This document shows positions 11,167 through 17,897 of a DNA stretch of 44,453 nucleotides, in pieces. The notes beneath the pieces are model-generated. The model saw only the letters and a list, made by a program, of their open reading frames with translations. It was not told the origin of the DNA and did no database searches. Position 1 is the first letter of the stretch. Every line of letters begins with the position of its first letter. Both the position numbers and the translations under genes were made by a program. The stretch spans positions 1 through 44,453 of the forward strand of contig NZ_LHZA01000136.1 in the NCBI RefSeq assembly GCF_001580535.1, written 5' to 3'. Source of the stretch: Acetobacter cerevisiae. GTDB lineage: Bacteria > Pseudomonadota > Alphaproteobacteria > Acetobacterales > Acetobacteraceae.

Positions 11167-11252
11167 GCGAACTTGGCGGAATGGTAGACGCAGGAGACTT
11201 AAAATCTCCAGCCCGTAAGGGCGTGCGGGTTCGAGTCCCGCAGTTCGCACCA
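11167..11252 (+). tRNA. tRNA-Leu (anticodon UAA)
   Basis: An 86-nt class II tRNA with encoded CCA. The acceptor stem GCGAACT (11167-11173) pairs with AGTTCGC (11242-11248). The anticodon stem is GGAGA/TCTCC around the loop CTTAAAA, giving anticodon TAA. A long variable arm (CAGCCCGTAAGGGCGT region) and the T arm GCGGGTTCGAGTCCCGC follow. Leucine identity agrees with the discriminator A and the long variable arm. Confidence 0.97.
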
Positions 11253-11444
11253 CCAACCATTTGAAATATAACAGCAAAATGAGAATTTGACGGTCTGCGG
11301 GATTTTTCCGTTTGTCTTCCCATAATGGGAACTCGTCATGCGCCGCCTTAGAGGCCCGCACTCTTACCTCCCTCGCCTCACTTGCTCTCATCCTGTAACA
11401 AGGCCTTTTTGGCATCCGGGGCGGAGCACTAGAGGCGGGCGCAG

Positions 11445-12920
11445 ATGAAGCTTGATTTCACAACTCTCAACAGCATGCGCCAGCATAATCCGGCCTGGCG
11501 CCTGTTATGCTCGGACCATGCCCCCCTTATTCTCAGCTTTTTGCATCAGGCCTTCGTACGCCCCAACGTGCGCAGTCTGGAAGCCGAGAGCATGGCGGAA
11601 GCGCTGGAGGACACGCTCTATGCTTTGCGCCAGCAGCTGGATGAAAACGCATTTCCCAGAACCGCCCGGGAGTATCTGGAAGACTGGGCGTCTCCCGACA
11701 AAGGCTGGCTGAGAAAATTCTATCAGCTCGGCACAGACAACGCCGTGTTCGACATGACCCCGGCTACCGAAAAAGCACTTTCATGGCTGGAGCAGTTGGC
11801 AGAGCGCAGCTTTGTCGGCACAGAATCCCGTCTGCGGACCCTGTTCGACCTCCTGCGTCAGATGAATGAAGGCACCCAGAGCGACCCGGACCAGCGCCTT
11901 GCCGACCTGCACCAGCGCCGGGATGAAATTGACGCCGAAATTGCCCGCATTCAGAGCGGGGATCTTAGCCTGATGGATGATACCGGCATCAAGGAACGCT
12001 TCTCCCAGTTCACCCGCATGGCGCGCGATCTTCTCGCCGACTTCCGTGAAGTAGAACATAATTTTCGCCGTCTGGACCGCGCGGTGCGGGAACGCGTTGC
12101 TCTATGGGATGGCACCAAAGGCGCTTTGCTGGATGAAATTCTGGCCCAGCATGATCTGATTAATGAATCCGATCAGGGCCGCAGTTTTCAGGCCTTTTGG
12201 AACTTCCTCATGTCCAGCCGCAGACAGGAAGAACTTTCCCAACAGCTGGAACATATTCTCTCCCTGCCCGTCATTGCGGCGCAGAACCCGGACCCACGCC
12301 TGCGCCGTATTCATTATGACTGGCTGGAAGCGGGCGACCACACACAGCGCACCGTCGCACAGTTGTCCCACCGCCTGCGTCAGTTTCTGGATGACCAGAG
12401 CCGGCAGGAAACCCGGCGCATTATGGAAATCCTGCATAATATCGAGGCCCACGCCATCGCCGCACGCCCGTACTTGTCCGACTGCCCGCCCGATGAGGCG
12501 CTGACGGATCTGGACGCCATGGCCGCCTCCCCTGACCTTATTATGGAACGGCCTCTTTATTCGCCCCCGCTCCCCACGATCCTGACGGTTGACCCGCTGC
12601 CGGAAGACACGGGGGACGATGTGGACCCCATAGCCCTTTATGAACAGGTCGTGGTGGACCGCGTGCGCCTGACCGAAAACATTCAGCAGGCGCTGGCGGA
12701 AGCCCCGCAAATCAGCCTTGCTGCGCTGCTGCGTCGCCACCCGCTGGAACAGGGCCTGTCTGAACTCGTGGCCTATCTTCAGCTCAGCAGTGAGCGCTTT
12801 GAGAGCCTCATTGATGAAAAGATAAACGATCATGTAAACTGGGACATTATGACAACGGATGGGTCCATCATAACGCGCCACGCCACCCTGCAACGCGTAA
12901 TTTTTGTGAGGTCGGCATGA
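11445..12920 (+). CDS. jetA: JetA/MksF-type kleisin subunit (DUF3375) of a Wadjet-like condensin
   Basis: A 491-aa DUF3375 protein, the kleisin of type I Wadjet (JetA) and related to MksF. It starts MKLDFTTLNSMRQHNPAWRLL, as these proteins usually do, and contains the conserved AREYLEDWASPDKGWLRKFY and FWNFLMSSRRQEELS segments. The N-terminal winged-helix and helical part (about 1-280) is followed by a linker and a C-terminal winged-helix segment (QQALAEAPQISLAALLRRHPLEQGLSELVAYL in part). In the complex it bridges the SMC heads and the KITE dimer. A GAGG lies about 9 bases upstream of the ATG. It overlaps jetB by 4 bp (ATGA). No jetD gene is adjacent. Confidence 0.9.
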   Translation: MKLDFTTLNSMRQHNPAWRLLCSDHAPLILSFLHQAFVRPNVRSLEAESMAEALEDTLYALRQQLDENAFPRTAREYLEDWASPDKGWLRKFYQLGTDNAVFDMTPATEKALSWLEQLAERSFVGTESRLRTLFDLLRQMNEGTQSDPDQRLADLHQRRDEIDAEIARIQSGDLSLMDDTGIKERFSQFTRMARDLLADFREVEHNFRRLDRAVRERVALWDGTKGALLDEILAQHDLINESDQGRSFQAFWNFLMSSRRQEELSQQLEHILSLPVIAAQNPDPRLRRIHYDWLEAGDHTQRTVAQLSHRLRQFLDDQSRQETRRIMEILHNIEAHAIAARPYLSDCPPDEALTDLDAMAASPDLIMERPLYSPPLPTILTVDPLPEDTGDDVDPIALYEQVVVDRVRLTENIQQALAEAPQISLAALLRRHPLEQGLSELVAYLQLSSERFESLIDEKINDHVNWDIMTTDGSIITRHATLQRVIFVRSA

Positions 12921-13675
12921 GCCAGACGGTCAATATCCCAGAGGACACAGAGGCTTCGGCTCACGGGCCAGCTTCTCTCTCCACGCTCGCCATTACGCTC
13001 TTAAAAAGCGTGATCTACCGGGAGGAAGATGAAGGCTTGTGGGGACATCTGCTCCGCCTTCAAAATCAGGTGCGGGATTATGTCGTCGTTTTGGGGCTGG
13101 TTCTGATTATCGACCCCGCCGAGGGCTATGCGTATCTGCGCAGCGCACCGCAGCCGGAAGAGGAAGAAGGCGCATCCCGCATGCTCCGTCTGATTGCGCG
13201 GCGTCCGCTCTCCTTCCATGTCAGTCTGCTTTTAGCCCTGCTCCGCCAGCAACTGGTCCGGTTTGATGCCATGGGCGGCGAGACCCGCCTTATCCTCAGC
13301 CGCGATGATATCGCCTCCATGCTTCAGACCTTTCTGCCAGAAAGTAGCAATGAAGTCCGGCAACTCGCGCAGATTGAAACCTATATCCGCCGCGTGGCCG
13401 AACTTGGCTTTCTGCGCCCCCTCCCCCCCACCAGTGCAGATGCCCCCAACGCCCCGCCTCGCTACGAGGTGCGGCGCATCCTGAAGGCCTATATTGATGC
13501 GGAATGGCTGGCGACGCTGGATGAACGGCTGGAAGCCTATCTGGCGCATGCCCGTAGCCTTGAGCAGACGGACCTGCCCCTTACAGGCGTACCCGCCACG
13601 CCAGAACAGAACACCACAGCTGAATCGCAGCTTTTTCCTGACCATGCCGATACAGGACTGACCGACCGTGACTGA
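12917..13675 (+). CDS. jetB: JetB/MksE-type KITE subunit (DUF4194)
   Basis: A 252-aa DUF4194 protein, the KITE subunit of Wadjet (JetB), related to MksE. Two winged-helix domains are predicted; the [22 protein letters not shown] opening and the [21 protein letters not shown] block are typical. The C-terminal 50 residues are Pro/Glu-rich and probably disordered. It starts inside the jetA stop (ATGA) and overlaps jetC by 8 bp, so the three proteins are likely made in fixed proportion. KITE dimers bind DNA and kleisin and hold the SMC heads in place. Confidence 0.9.
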
Positions 13676-16600
13676 CACCCAGCAAGCCCCGCTCGACTTT
13701 GCCGTGGATGATCGTCTGGCCGGGTTCCGTCTGCATCGTCTGGAAGTGCTGAACTGGGGCACGTTTGACAAGCGGATCTGGCGCTTTGACCTCAACGGTC
13801 GGAACGCGCTGCTGACCGGTAATATTGGCTCGGGCAAATCCACACTGGTGGATGCCATCACCACCCTGCTCGTTCCCGCACAGCGCATTGTTTATAACAA
13901 AGCTGCTGGGGCTGATACGCGTGAGCGCTCCCTGCGCTCCTACGTGACCGGCCATTATAAATCCGAACGCAACGACGCAACCGGTTCCACTAAATCAGTT
14001 AGCCTGCGTGACACACAAAGCTACACGGTTATTCTAGGTGTTTTCAAAAACGAAGGGTATCTGCAAACCGTCACACTGGCGCAGGTTTTCTGGATAAAAA
14101 AACAGCAGGTGCAGCTTGCACGCTTCTTTGTGTGCGCGGAAAAAGAACTGTCCATTCAGGAGCATTTTACCGGGTTCGGGACGGATATCCTGCAACTGCG
14201 TAAAAACCTGCGTGCGCAGGGTGCGGAAGTAGAAGACAGCTTTAACCGCTATGCCGCATGGTTCCGTCGCCGCTTCGGGATTGAAAACGAGCAGGCTTTA
14301 GATCTGTTTCTGCAAACTGTTTCCATGAAGTCTGTTGATAATATCACAGACTTTGTTCGGGAAAACATGCTGGCACAGTTTGACGCCACTGAACGCATCC
14401 ATGCCCTGATTTCTCATTTTGAAGATCTGGATGACTCGCATCAGGCTGTCCTGAAAGCGCAGAAGCAGATCAGCCTGCTCACGCCCTTGACAGAAGACCT
14501 CACCGCCCACACGGAAAGTAAAAACCGGCATGACACGCTCAAAGCCTGCCGTCAGGCTTTGCCGGGTTATTTTGCCAGCCAGAAAGCCACCCTGCTTGAG
14601 CAGAAAATTGCCAAAGAGCAGGATGTTGCCGCAACCAATCAGCAGCAGCTGACTGAACAGGATGCCGTACGCACCACCAGCAAGCAGCAGCTGGACGAGA
14701 TCAAGCAAGCTATTTATGCCAACGGGGGCGACAGGCTTGAGCAACTAGCCATCGCCATCCAGCAAGCCGAAAAGACCAGTGAAGACCGGCGCAAAAATGC
14801 CGCGCATTACGCAATACTTGTTGAAAAACTAAATGAAAAACCTTCTAACTCTGCTGAAGGCTTTCTGGAGCTTACGCAGCATCTCAGGAAGCAGAAAGGT
14901 GAGTGGAAAAAGCAGGATACCTGGCTTGCAAAGGATCTGACCGAGCAGAGCATTCTGTTCCACGAAGAAAAAAACCAGCACGCCGAGATTATCACCGAAC
15001 TGGACAGCTTGCGGAAACGCCAGAGTAATATTGACGAACGGCAGATCCGCATGCGCGCCATGCTATGTGATGCGCTGGATGTGTCTGCGGAGGATCTGCC
15101 GTTTGCCGGGGAACTTATCCGGGTGCGCGATGACGCGCGGGAATGGGAAGGCGCTGCGGAACGTCTGCTGCATAATTTTGCATTATCACTGCTTGTGCCG
15201 GACCATCTCTATGCACAGGTGGTGGACTGGGTTGACCGCACGCAGCTAAAAGGGCGTCTGGTTTACTACCACATTCAGCAACACCGCTCAGGTTCCCATG
15301 CCGGTCGCCATCCCAATACACTGGCCCAGAAACTGGAAGTCCATCCGGACTCCCCCATGCGGCTCTGGGTGGAAAACGAACTGGCACACCGCTTCAGCTT
15401 TACCTGCTGCGAAACTCAGGACGATTTCCGCCGCTCCAGCAAAGCCGTTACCCGGTCTGGTCAGGTCAAGGAACCGGGCGGTCGGCATGAAAAAGATGAC
15501 CGCCACCGGATTGATGACCGGAGCCGCTATGTTCTGGGCTGGAACAACGCCATCAAGATTGCAGCTCTTGAAGAGCGGCAGCGGGAGCAGGAAGCGCTGA
15601 TCCAGAAACATGCTGGTGAAATTGCGCAGGCCGAAAATACCCGTAAAATGCTGCAGGAACGCTTTGAAACGCTAACCCGGCTGGAGCGCTACCCCGATTA
15701 CACCCAGTTGGACTGGCAGAGTGCCGCACAAACAGCAGCTCAACTGACAGCCGAACGGGAAGCTCTAACAGCAACATCCGATGTTCTGCGTGAACTCAAA
15801 CAGCAGAAAGAGCATGCAGAACAGGCGCTACGGCAGGCTGAAGCGGAGTATATGATCCTGTTTAAAAAGCAGGCACTTCTGGATCAGTCTGTTGAAACTC
15901 TTCAGGCCCGCCTGCAACATTGCCAGACGGTTCTGAACGAGTACACGCTTACCCCACAGCATGAGCAGGAACTCACCCAGCTTCAAACACAGTTAAATGG
16001 CGCAGACCTTGCCAGCCTTGACGCCTGCGAGGTTGCTGAGACGCAACTGCGAGACCAGCTGGACACACAGATTGACCAGCAACAGCGCACACTGGACTGC
16101 CTGCGCGACAGTATTCTGAAGGATATGCGGGAGTTCCGGACAACATATCCGGTCGAAGCGCAGGACATGGACGATCATCTGGATGCCGGCCCTGAGTATT
16201 GCGCGTTGCTGGCACAACTCAAAAAAGATGACCTTCCGCGCTTTGTCAGTCGCTTTAAAAACCTTCTGACAGTCAATACAATTAACGAAATTGCCAATTT
16301 CAATGCGCATCTGGCGCAGGAACGGGAGATTATCAAGGAACGAATTGCCGTCATCAATACGTCCCTGACCCAGATTGACTATAACCCGGACCGCTACATC
16401 CGGCTTGAAGCCCACCAGACGCAGGACGCGGAAATCCGCGATTTTCAGGCCTCCCTCCGTGCCTGCACCGAAAATGCTGTTTCCGGGGATGATACCGAAC
16501 AGTATTCCGAGCAGCGCTTTTATCTGGTGAAAACCATGATCGAACGCTTCCGCGGGCGTGAAGGCCTTGCGGAACAGGATCGCCGCTGGACGGCAAAAGT

Positions 16601-17036
16601 CACTGATGTACGCAACTGGTTTTCCTTCGCGGCCAGTGAGCGCTGGCGCGCGAATGAGACCGAGTTCGACCATTATACAGATTCCGGGGGCAAATCTGGC
16701 GGCCAGAAGGAAAAGCTGGCCTATACCATTCTGGCTGCCGGCCTGGCGTATCAGTTCGGACTGGAATGGGGCGAAGTACGCTCGCGCTCCTTCCGCTTTG
16801 TGGTGATTGATGAAGCCTTTGGCCGTGGGTCTGATGACTCCACCCAATACGGCCTGCGGCTGTTCCAGCAACTCAACATGCAGCTTCTTATTATTACACC
16901 TTTACAAAAAATCCATATTATTGAACCTTTTGTTTCAAGTGTGGGCTTTGTGGACAATAAGGATGGAAATTACTCGCGCCTGCGTGTTCTGAGTATAGAG
17001 GAGCATTTTGCCAACAAGGTATCCCAATCTGCATAG
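13668..17036 (+). CDS. jetC: JetC/MksB-type SMC-like ATPase
   Basis: A 1122-aa SMC-like ATPase starting at GTG 13668. The N-terminal head has Walker [10 protein letters not shown] at 51-59. Coiled-coil arms run about 270-470 and 630-890, separated by a hinge-like segment (about 490-620) with the family block [18 protein letters not shown]. The C-terminal head has the signature [12 protein letters not shown] (from residue 1006) and Walker B FVVIDEA with Asp1048 and Glu1049. All catalytic residues are present, so it should hydrolyse ATP and extrude DNA loops. In Wadjet the motor halts on small circular DNA and JetD cuts it. Here the next gene is a Sel1-repeat protein under its own Fur box. Compared with neighbours the coding is visibly richer in A and T, which could mean horizontal acquisition. 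Confidence 0.92.
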
Positions 17037-17077
17037 CCACCCCTCGCTCCCCGCAATTGCCACCCGCCCCCTACTTT

Positions 17078-17096
17078 GATAATGATAATCCTTCTC
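17078..17096 (+). promoter_or_regulatory. Fur box
   Basis: GATAATGATAATCCTTCTC matches the classic 19-bp Fur consensus GATAATGATAATCATTATC at 17 of 19 positions by eye. It ends 18 bp before the ATG of the Sel1-repeat gene, so Fe-Fur would block its promoter. This implies transcription separate from the jet operon. Confidence 0.8.
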
Positions 17097-17114
17097 AAAT
17101 AAGGAGTGGAGATC

Positions 17115-17897
17115 ATGTCAGGGCCGGGCGTATGGCAGCAGTTGTTTTCACGGCCACATAAAAACAAAAAGCCTGCCCAGACCCCTTTGCCGGAGCAAAT
17201 AGACGCCATTCGTCAACGCGCGGAACGGGGCCATCACCTGGATCAGGTTTTATGGGGGAAAGTGCTGCTGAATAGTGCCTATGTCGCGCCTGATCACTCT
17301 AAGGCCCTAGTCTGGTTCACTATGGCCGCCAATGCCGGATACGGCCCTGCACACAATATGATAGGCCGGTGCCACCATTTTGGGTGGGGATGCAAGAAGG
17401 ACCTGCAACAGGCCGCTCACCATTATGAAACTGCTGCCAGCCTCGGCGATGAATGGGGCCGTTATAATCTTGGCATTCTGACCATGCGTGGCCTTGGCAT
17501 TCCGCGTGACATGAAAAAGGCGCTCGGGCTTTTTACAACAGCGGCACACAACGGGCACGCCAAGTCCATGAACCTTCTGGCACGCTTTTTGGAAGAAGGC
17601 TGGGAGACACCTCAGGATAAAGAGGCGGCTTTAGTCTGGTATCGCAAATCCGCTGAAGGCGGTGATTATCGCGGCTGCCATAACTACGCCACAGCTCTGG
17701 CTGACGCCGGACATGTGGATGATGCCCTACACTGGTGGCGGCAAGCCCTCCCGGATGCCACGTCAGATATTCTTCTCGCCATGGATCGGGCTTTGACCAG
17801 TCTGGGCGAGGCAGGAGATCCCACGCTTTACACAGCCTTGCAGGAACGCCTGCAAACCCTCCCGCCACACACCCAATCAACTTCCGTCACACCCTGA
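17115..17897 (+). CDS. Sel1-repeat (TPR-like) protein, predicted Fur-regulated
   Basis: A 260-aa cytoplasmic protein. The start is ATG 17115, with AAGGAG eight bases before it; an in-frame GTG at 17106 overlaps that ribosome-binding site. Four to five Sel1-like repeats occupy about residues 45-215, with the recurring pattern ALVWFTMAANAGYGPAHNMIG and GRYNLGILTMRGLGIPRDMKKAL. Such solenoids act as protein-protein adaptors. No signal peptide or catalytic domain is present. A Fur box directly upstream and bacterioferritin downstream suggest a role tied to iron status. It occupies the position where jetD is expected in a Wadjet locus, but nothing in it looks like a nuclease. Confidence 0.85.
   Translation: MSGPGVWQQLFSRPHKNKKPAQTPLPEQIDAIRQRAERGHHLDQVLWGKVLLNSAYVAPDHSKALVWFTMAANAGYGPAHNMIGRCHHFGWGCKKDLQQAAHHYETAASLGDEWGRYNLGILTMRGLGIPRDMKKALGLFTTAAHNGHAKSMNLLARFLEEGWETPQDKEAALVWYRKSAEGGDYRGCHNYATALADAGHVDDALHWWRQALPDATSDILLAMDRALTSLGEAGDPTLYTALQERLQTLPPHTQSTSVTP

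Follow-up and report, generated by a model that had tools for sequence, protein, structure and literature searches.

Does a condensin operon that is found without its nuclease gene belong to a defence system with some other effector, to a machine that organises chromosomes, or to a Wadjet system from which one gene has been removed? This question is raised by a locus of Acetobacter cerevisiae lying in the window, which denotes here the whole stretch of 44,453 nucleotides that was analysed. Positions 11445-17036 of its plus strand carry three overlapping and intact genes, namely jetA-jetB-jetC of type I Wadjet, and the evidence assembled below indicates that the operon is very probably a type I Wadjet whose nuclease gene was lost by a deletion of ~1.3 kb between 5-bp repeats.

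The operon and the missing nuclease gene

The three genes and the ATPase motifs of JetC are located as follows:

11445..12920, plus strand: jetA, 491 aa, kleisin subunit with DUF3375 (Pfam E 3e-144; PADLOC JetA1, 691 bits)
12917..13675, plus strand: jetB, 252 aa, KITE subunit with DUF4194 (Pfam E 4e-40; PADLOC JetB1, 285 bits)
13668..17036, plus strand: jetC, 1122 aa, GTG start, SMC-type ATPase (Pfam AAA_29 and SbcC_Walker_B; PADLOC JetC1, 1534 bits)
13818..13844, plus strand: Walker A of JetC, GNIGSGKST (aa 51-59)
16695..16715, plus strand: ABC signature of JetC, SGGQKEK (aa 1010-1016)
16797..16823, plus strand: Walker B of JetC, FVVIDEAFG (aa 1044-1052)

The first two genes overlap by 4 bp and the last two by 8 bp, and all three ATPase motifs are complete. 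The preliminary description had listed the same reading frames, overlaps, domains and JetC motifs, and Pfam and PADLOC bear it out. Features of type I Wadjet found in the window are JetA with DUF3375, JetB with DUF4194 and JetC with Walker A, signature and Walker B, whereas the JetD nuclease (DUF3322 and JetD_C) is not found beside jetC. Sequence matches to solved JetABCD complexes were obtained for JetC (8as8, E 1e-56) and JetA (8dk1, E 6e-26); among the profile models and solved structures compared, JetC fits JetC1 models and solved JetC chains best, and JetB additionally matches Pfam MksE (E 3e-10). DUF3375 occurs a single time in the window genome. A promoter and terminator scan listed no promoter-like site between the upstream tRNA-Leu(TAA) and jetA.

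The absence of jetD beside the operon, already pointed out in the preliminary description, extends to the whole genome: the JetD_C profile (PF09983) gave no match in the entire window assembly (3.09 Mb, 157 contigs, 99.99% complete), and the JetD protein of A. malorum, used as a query against the same assembly, gave none at E<=1. An absent nuclease gene (JetD/MksG family searched) is a feature of MksBEF-type systems that the window shares.

Two close relatives, A. malorum LMG 1746 and A. persici, encode a JetD of 393 aa whose gene overlaps the stop codon of jetC; DUF3322 and JetD_C are matched by the former protein and listed for the latter. JetABC of the window is 96.7% identical to that of A. 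malorum LMG 1746, in which one copy of ATCCC lies inside the end of jetC and another after jetD. The window holds one copy, with jetC homology on its left and post-jetD homology on its right:

17021..17025, plus strand: jetD deletion junction, single ATCCC (two copies ~1309 bp apart in A. malorum LMG 1746)

The window JetC ends in VSQSA in place of the usual tail and is 13 residues shorter than the 1135-aa A. malorum form. Compared with A. malorum, the window has lost ~1.3 kb, jetD and the jetC end included; a deletion between the two 5-bp ATCCC repeats, inside the jetC end and downstream of jetD, is very probably how jetD disappeared. The preliminary description thus stands as regards the missing JetD and gives way as regards a separate system designed without it: jetD adjoins the operon in the two relatives, a finding which that description had itself named as refuting, and the locus represents a type I Wadjet from which the gene was lost.

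The operon is flanked by the following features:

11167..11252, plus strand: tRNA-Leu(TAA), upstream of the operon
17106..17897, plus strand: Sel1-repeat protein gene, right-hand edge of the variable locus and outside the system

The next genes downstream of the window operon encode this Sel1-repeat protein and a ferritin-like protein. Both also lie downstream in A. malorum DsW_057, in the Acetobacter genome G010 and in the JetD-bearing loci, A. orientalis having other neighbours, and a query made of the two genes found an at least partial match in 47 of the 49 Acetobacter genomes. A GATAATGATAATC-type motif, presumably resembling a Fur box, is situated at window 17075-17100, just before the Sel1-repeat gene, and is seen in relatives as well. 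From its sequence context, the tRNA-Leu(TAA) gene ahead of jetA has the appearance of an integration hotspot. Of seven relative loci scanned with ARAGORN, none yielded a complete tRNA. Short copies of the tRNA-Leu(TAA) 3' end flank variable DNA in L003 (2887-5560) and L052 (1-5667), for comparison with window 11167-11445, and a phage-type integrase is encoded at L003 2965-4374.

Presence and loss of jetD in Acetobacter and beyond

JetC is present in six of the 49 Acetobacter genomes and JetD_C in two. The six carriers are the window genome, A. malorum LMG 1746 (G016, L002), A. malorum DsW_057 (G017, L003), A. orientalis (G023, L005), A. persici (G030, L004 and L055) and G010; the genus was sampled via JetC, and losses that removed jetC too are invisible to this count. 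The four loci without JetD bear different scars, that of the window being a clean deletion. In DsW_057 there remains a jetD stub of ~120 nt, which contains an indel that breaks the frame and gives way to foreign DNA; it is too short for dating the loss. In G010, jetC ends without a jetD behind it, and its stop codon leads directly into a stretch whose transposase-like ORFs may resemble IS630. A. orientalis has no jetD remnant, and its downstream neighbourhood differs. Within the foreign DNA that replaces most of jetD in DsW_057, a 331-aa minus-strand protein without a Pfam match is encoded (L003 11629-12624).

In a nucleotide tree of jetABC, A. malorum is the partner of the window and A. persici that of G010 (the latter pair with 80% support), and these pairings imply four terminal losses of jetD. 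In the JetC protein tree, the window, DsW_057 and A. malorum show no well-supported branching order, and the branches that do have good support require no more than two changes of the JetD label. The JetC of A. orientalis has an altered tail in common with a second protein record that is 99.4% identical; being common to two records, this tail suggests that the loss there is not brand new. In one A. persici assembly (JCM 25330; L055, reverse strand, ~499-500), a frameshift near codon 86 splits jetA while jetD is intact, possibly through a draft sequencing error. Given this frameshift in a locus that has kept jetD, inactivation may strike any gene of the operon.

Two more related lineages seem to keep JetD. 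In the protein database, JetC clusters P0002 (Gluconacetobacter sp. 1b LMG 1731) and P0006 pair with JetD clusters P0122 and P0125, the longest contigs of paired clusters having the same length. JetC cluster P0003, which resembles the A. orientalis protein and comprises 50 member sequences, had no assignable JetD cluster; as JetD clusters P0124 and P0126 come without species, this is a hint only. P0126 is a 312-aa JetD from an unplaced contig that ends abruptly in the toprim region, possibly a broken jetD or a contig edge.

Beyond the genus, the DUF3375 cut-off was passed by 38 of 398 Pseudomonadota genomes, the window genome included. Among the other 37 carriers, JetD_C was found somewhere in the genome in 30 (one with an internal stop), lying within 10 kb of jetA in 23, ~18 kb off in one and on another contig in six. 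The seven without JetD_C comprise four from one Stenotrophomonas-like genus and three loci cut short by a contig end, which are not judgeable. With that genus and the three cut loci excluded, JetD is lacking in 4/6 Acetobacter carriers against 0/30 others (Fisher p 0.00025); the contrast becomes 4/6 against 4/34 with the Stenotrophomonas-like genus included (p 0.0095) and 4/8 against 0/30 with the P0002 and P0006 lineages counted as carriers (p 0.00095), all three values being descriptive, as the genomes are non-independent. In Alphaproteobacteria, one of 385 genomes exceeded the DUF3375 cut-off, namely the window's own, and in a family sample of 299 genomes (the window genome and G010 included) full-length DUF3375 occurred only in the window genome, G010 and G251, a fourth match being a fragment. 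E. coli genomes, taken as a base-rate sample, gave no DNA match, and viral contigs gave one pattern match and no relative. A plasmid-borne origin was considered and rejected: tblastn with JetC against 72,556 plasmid records returned 18, all below 60% identity and none from Acetobacter (records near the window genome may be left out).

Selection on JetABC and the readings of its persistence

Selection was assessed with a branch codon model (custom script, 1883 codons, one fixed topology, one genome per species). Omega is 0.072 on the four terminal branches that lost JetD and 0.091 on the remaining branches, with lnL -19675.2 for two omegas, -19677.7 for a single omega and -19640.6 for a free omega per branch. 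The free model fits far better, and in it omega is high both for A. persici, which kept JetD, and for G010, which lost it. Estimates (95% intervals) for branches without JetD are 0.060 (0.039-0.089) for the window, 0.050 (0.034-0.072) for DsW_057, 0.054 (0.044-0.064) for A. orientalis and 0.123 (0.102-0.148) for G010; those for JetD-bearing branches are 0.048 (0.033-0.069) for A. malorum and 0.111 (0.089-0.139) for A. persici. The spread of omega therefore tracks lineage rather than JetD status. Per gene, lost branches compare with the rest as 0.067 vs 0.068 (jetA), 0.109 vs 0.197 (jetB) and 0.065 vs 0.078 (jetC). JetABC is under strong purifying selection in the branches that lost JetD, without a sign of relaxation. 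Measured against A. malorum (A. persici in the case of G010), the upper limits leave room for a neutral share of 2-4% of each terminal branch, or of 3-7% if the baseline is set at its lower limit. The low omega is compatible with a JetD-independent role as well as with very recent losses, and does not separate the two.

Even without JetD, the complex would be expected to trap DNA and to extrude it by means of the JetC ATPase, because JetD is described, in the available text of PMC12647877, as activated after extrusion by JetABC. Small circular plasmids would in that case go uncut, and plasmid restriction would therefore be off. Between a JetABC that still serves some purpose merely by extruding DNA and losses of very recent date, we regard the balance as about even. 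It is quite possible, at somewhat below an even chance, that JetABC is now a nuclease-free loop extruder which organises the chromosome or plasmids and is kept for that, as proposed for MksBEF of P. aeruginosa. Such a role is in keeping with jetA, jetB and jetC remaining intact and unrelaxed after the loss; with the altered JetC tail of A. orientalis, whose recurrence in the second record suggests, without proof, an older loss; with the Stenotrophomonas-like genus that keeps JetABC without JetD (JetC in 53/61 genomes; JetD absent in 4/4 checked); and with the likely origin of P. aeruginosa MksBEF by loss of JetD, as stated in the available part of PMC10586767. Nevertheless, omega cannot tell a kept function from a recent loss, the available text of PMC7083940 has the nuclease-bearing MksBEFG of C. 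glutamicum not folding the chromosome, and that of PMC11680222 calls the JetD-less Wadjet I of S. maltophilia probably inactive.

Close to an even chance is given to a loss of jetD that was recent and transient, by which a costly defence was shed, e.g. after the gain of useful plasmids, JetABC being an undecayed passenger. The clean junction in the window, the retention of jetD in its nearest relative A. malorum, the patchiness of type I Wadjet in the family (the three full-length DUF3375 genomes) and the low omega expected of young losses all accord with it, but it requires the loss in each of four lineages to fall in roughly the final 2-6% of its terminal branch (upper limits; baseline A. 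malorum or A. persici), and all four losses strike jetD and leave jetABC open, as sampled by JetC. A different or distant effector paired with JetABC in the window genome, as suggested in the preliminary description, is very improbable: the intact JetABC is the sole point for it, and neither the JetD_C profile, run over the whole genome, nor the neighbours of the operon yielded a candidate, the Sel1 and ferritin genes behind it being common to JetD-bearing loci and to genomes that lack jetABC (47/49 of the genus matched, as against 6/49 for JetC). Least credible of all is that jetD was merely dropped from a 157-contig draft assembly, as the junction is internal to a 44-kb contig, its flanking genes are seen in relatives, the repeats measure just 5 bp and three other species are also without jetD.

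On the preferred account, in which a type I Wadjet was deprived of its nuclease gene, a broader proposition may be put forward tentatively, as one that we hold to be less probable than its opposite: that a Wadjet I which Acetobacter probably received from outside its class is repeatedly being turned there into a loop extruder without a nuclease, through independent removals of jetD, JetABC being kept by selection for a JetD-independent task. If true, it would show the path that has been proposed from plasmid defence to an MksBEF-like condensin, taken in several parallel steps and with nuclease-bearing sisters as controls. Natural pairs for testing the role of the motor without the nuclease are provided by close Acetobacter species that differ in the presence of jetD and whose JetABC is up to 96.7% identical, and the parallel losses are useful for testing what JetABC does alone.

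Comparison with known systems

The window resembles type I Wadjet (JetABCD) in carrying JetA, JetB and JetC in the same order and with the same overlaps, followed by jetD in two close relatives, and differs in that this defining nuclease gene has been deleted. The MksBEF of P. aeruginosa, compared here by description only, likewise consists of SMC, kleisin and KITE subunits without a nuclease, and a 2023 review (PMC10586767, available part) holds that it likely arose through JetD loss; unlike it, JetA and JetC of the window score with type I Wadjet models, and the loss occurred within one genus. The MksBEFG of C. glutamicum shares the same three condensin subunits, whereas it has retained its MksG nuclease, has plasmids as its target and does not fold the chromosome (PMC10123090 and PMC7083940, available text).

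The closest precedent in gene content is found in the defence islands of S. maltophilia, where, according to the available text of PMC11680222, the commonest Wadjet I variant is without jetD and has highly conserved jetABC, and a complete variant occurs in another island in four related strains. Here, as in the window, jetABC is conserved without jetD; the surveyed S. maltophilia strains, however, share one conserved island (PMC11680222, available text), whereas carriage in Acetobacter is patchy and marked by several separate scars. JetA and JetC of the Stenotrophomonas-like genus are ~29% identical to those of the window in alignments. In agreement with the published survey, a JetD profile (120 proteins) found none in 30 of the 53 JetC loci of this genus (1.5 kb flanks) nor in four longer ones; the same profile recovered five JetD-bearing controls (two inside the profile) and, weakly, the DsW_057 stub. 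One genome of that genus encodes an additional JetC that shares 54% identity with the query (G1081:C1:3487928-3491251).

In the literature on Acetobacter and Wadjet, as far as it was accessible in part (preprints outside the scope, few subscription papers), no report of this operon was found, and the passage on Acetobacter in the available text of PMC12647877 concerns its Smc protein. JetD-less Wadjet I as such is already published for S. maltophilia, and the Acetobacter case is a new example of it.
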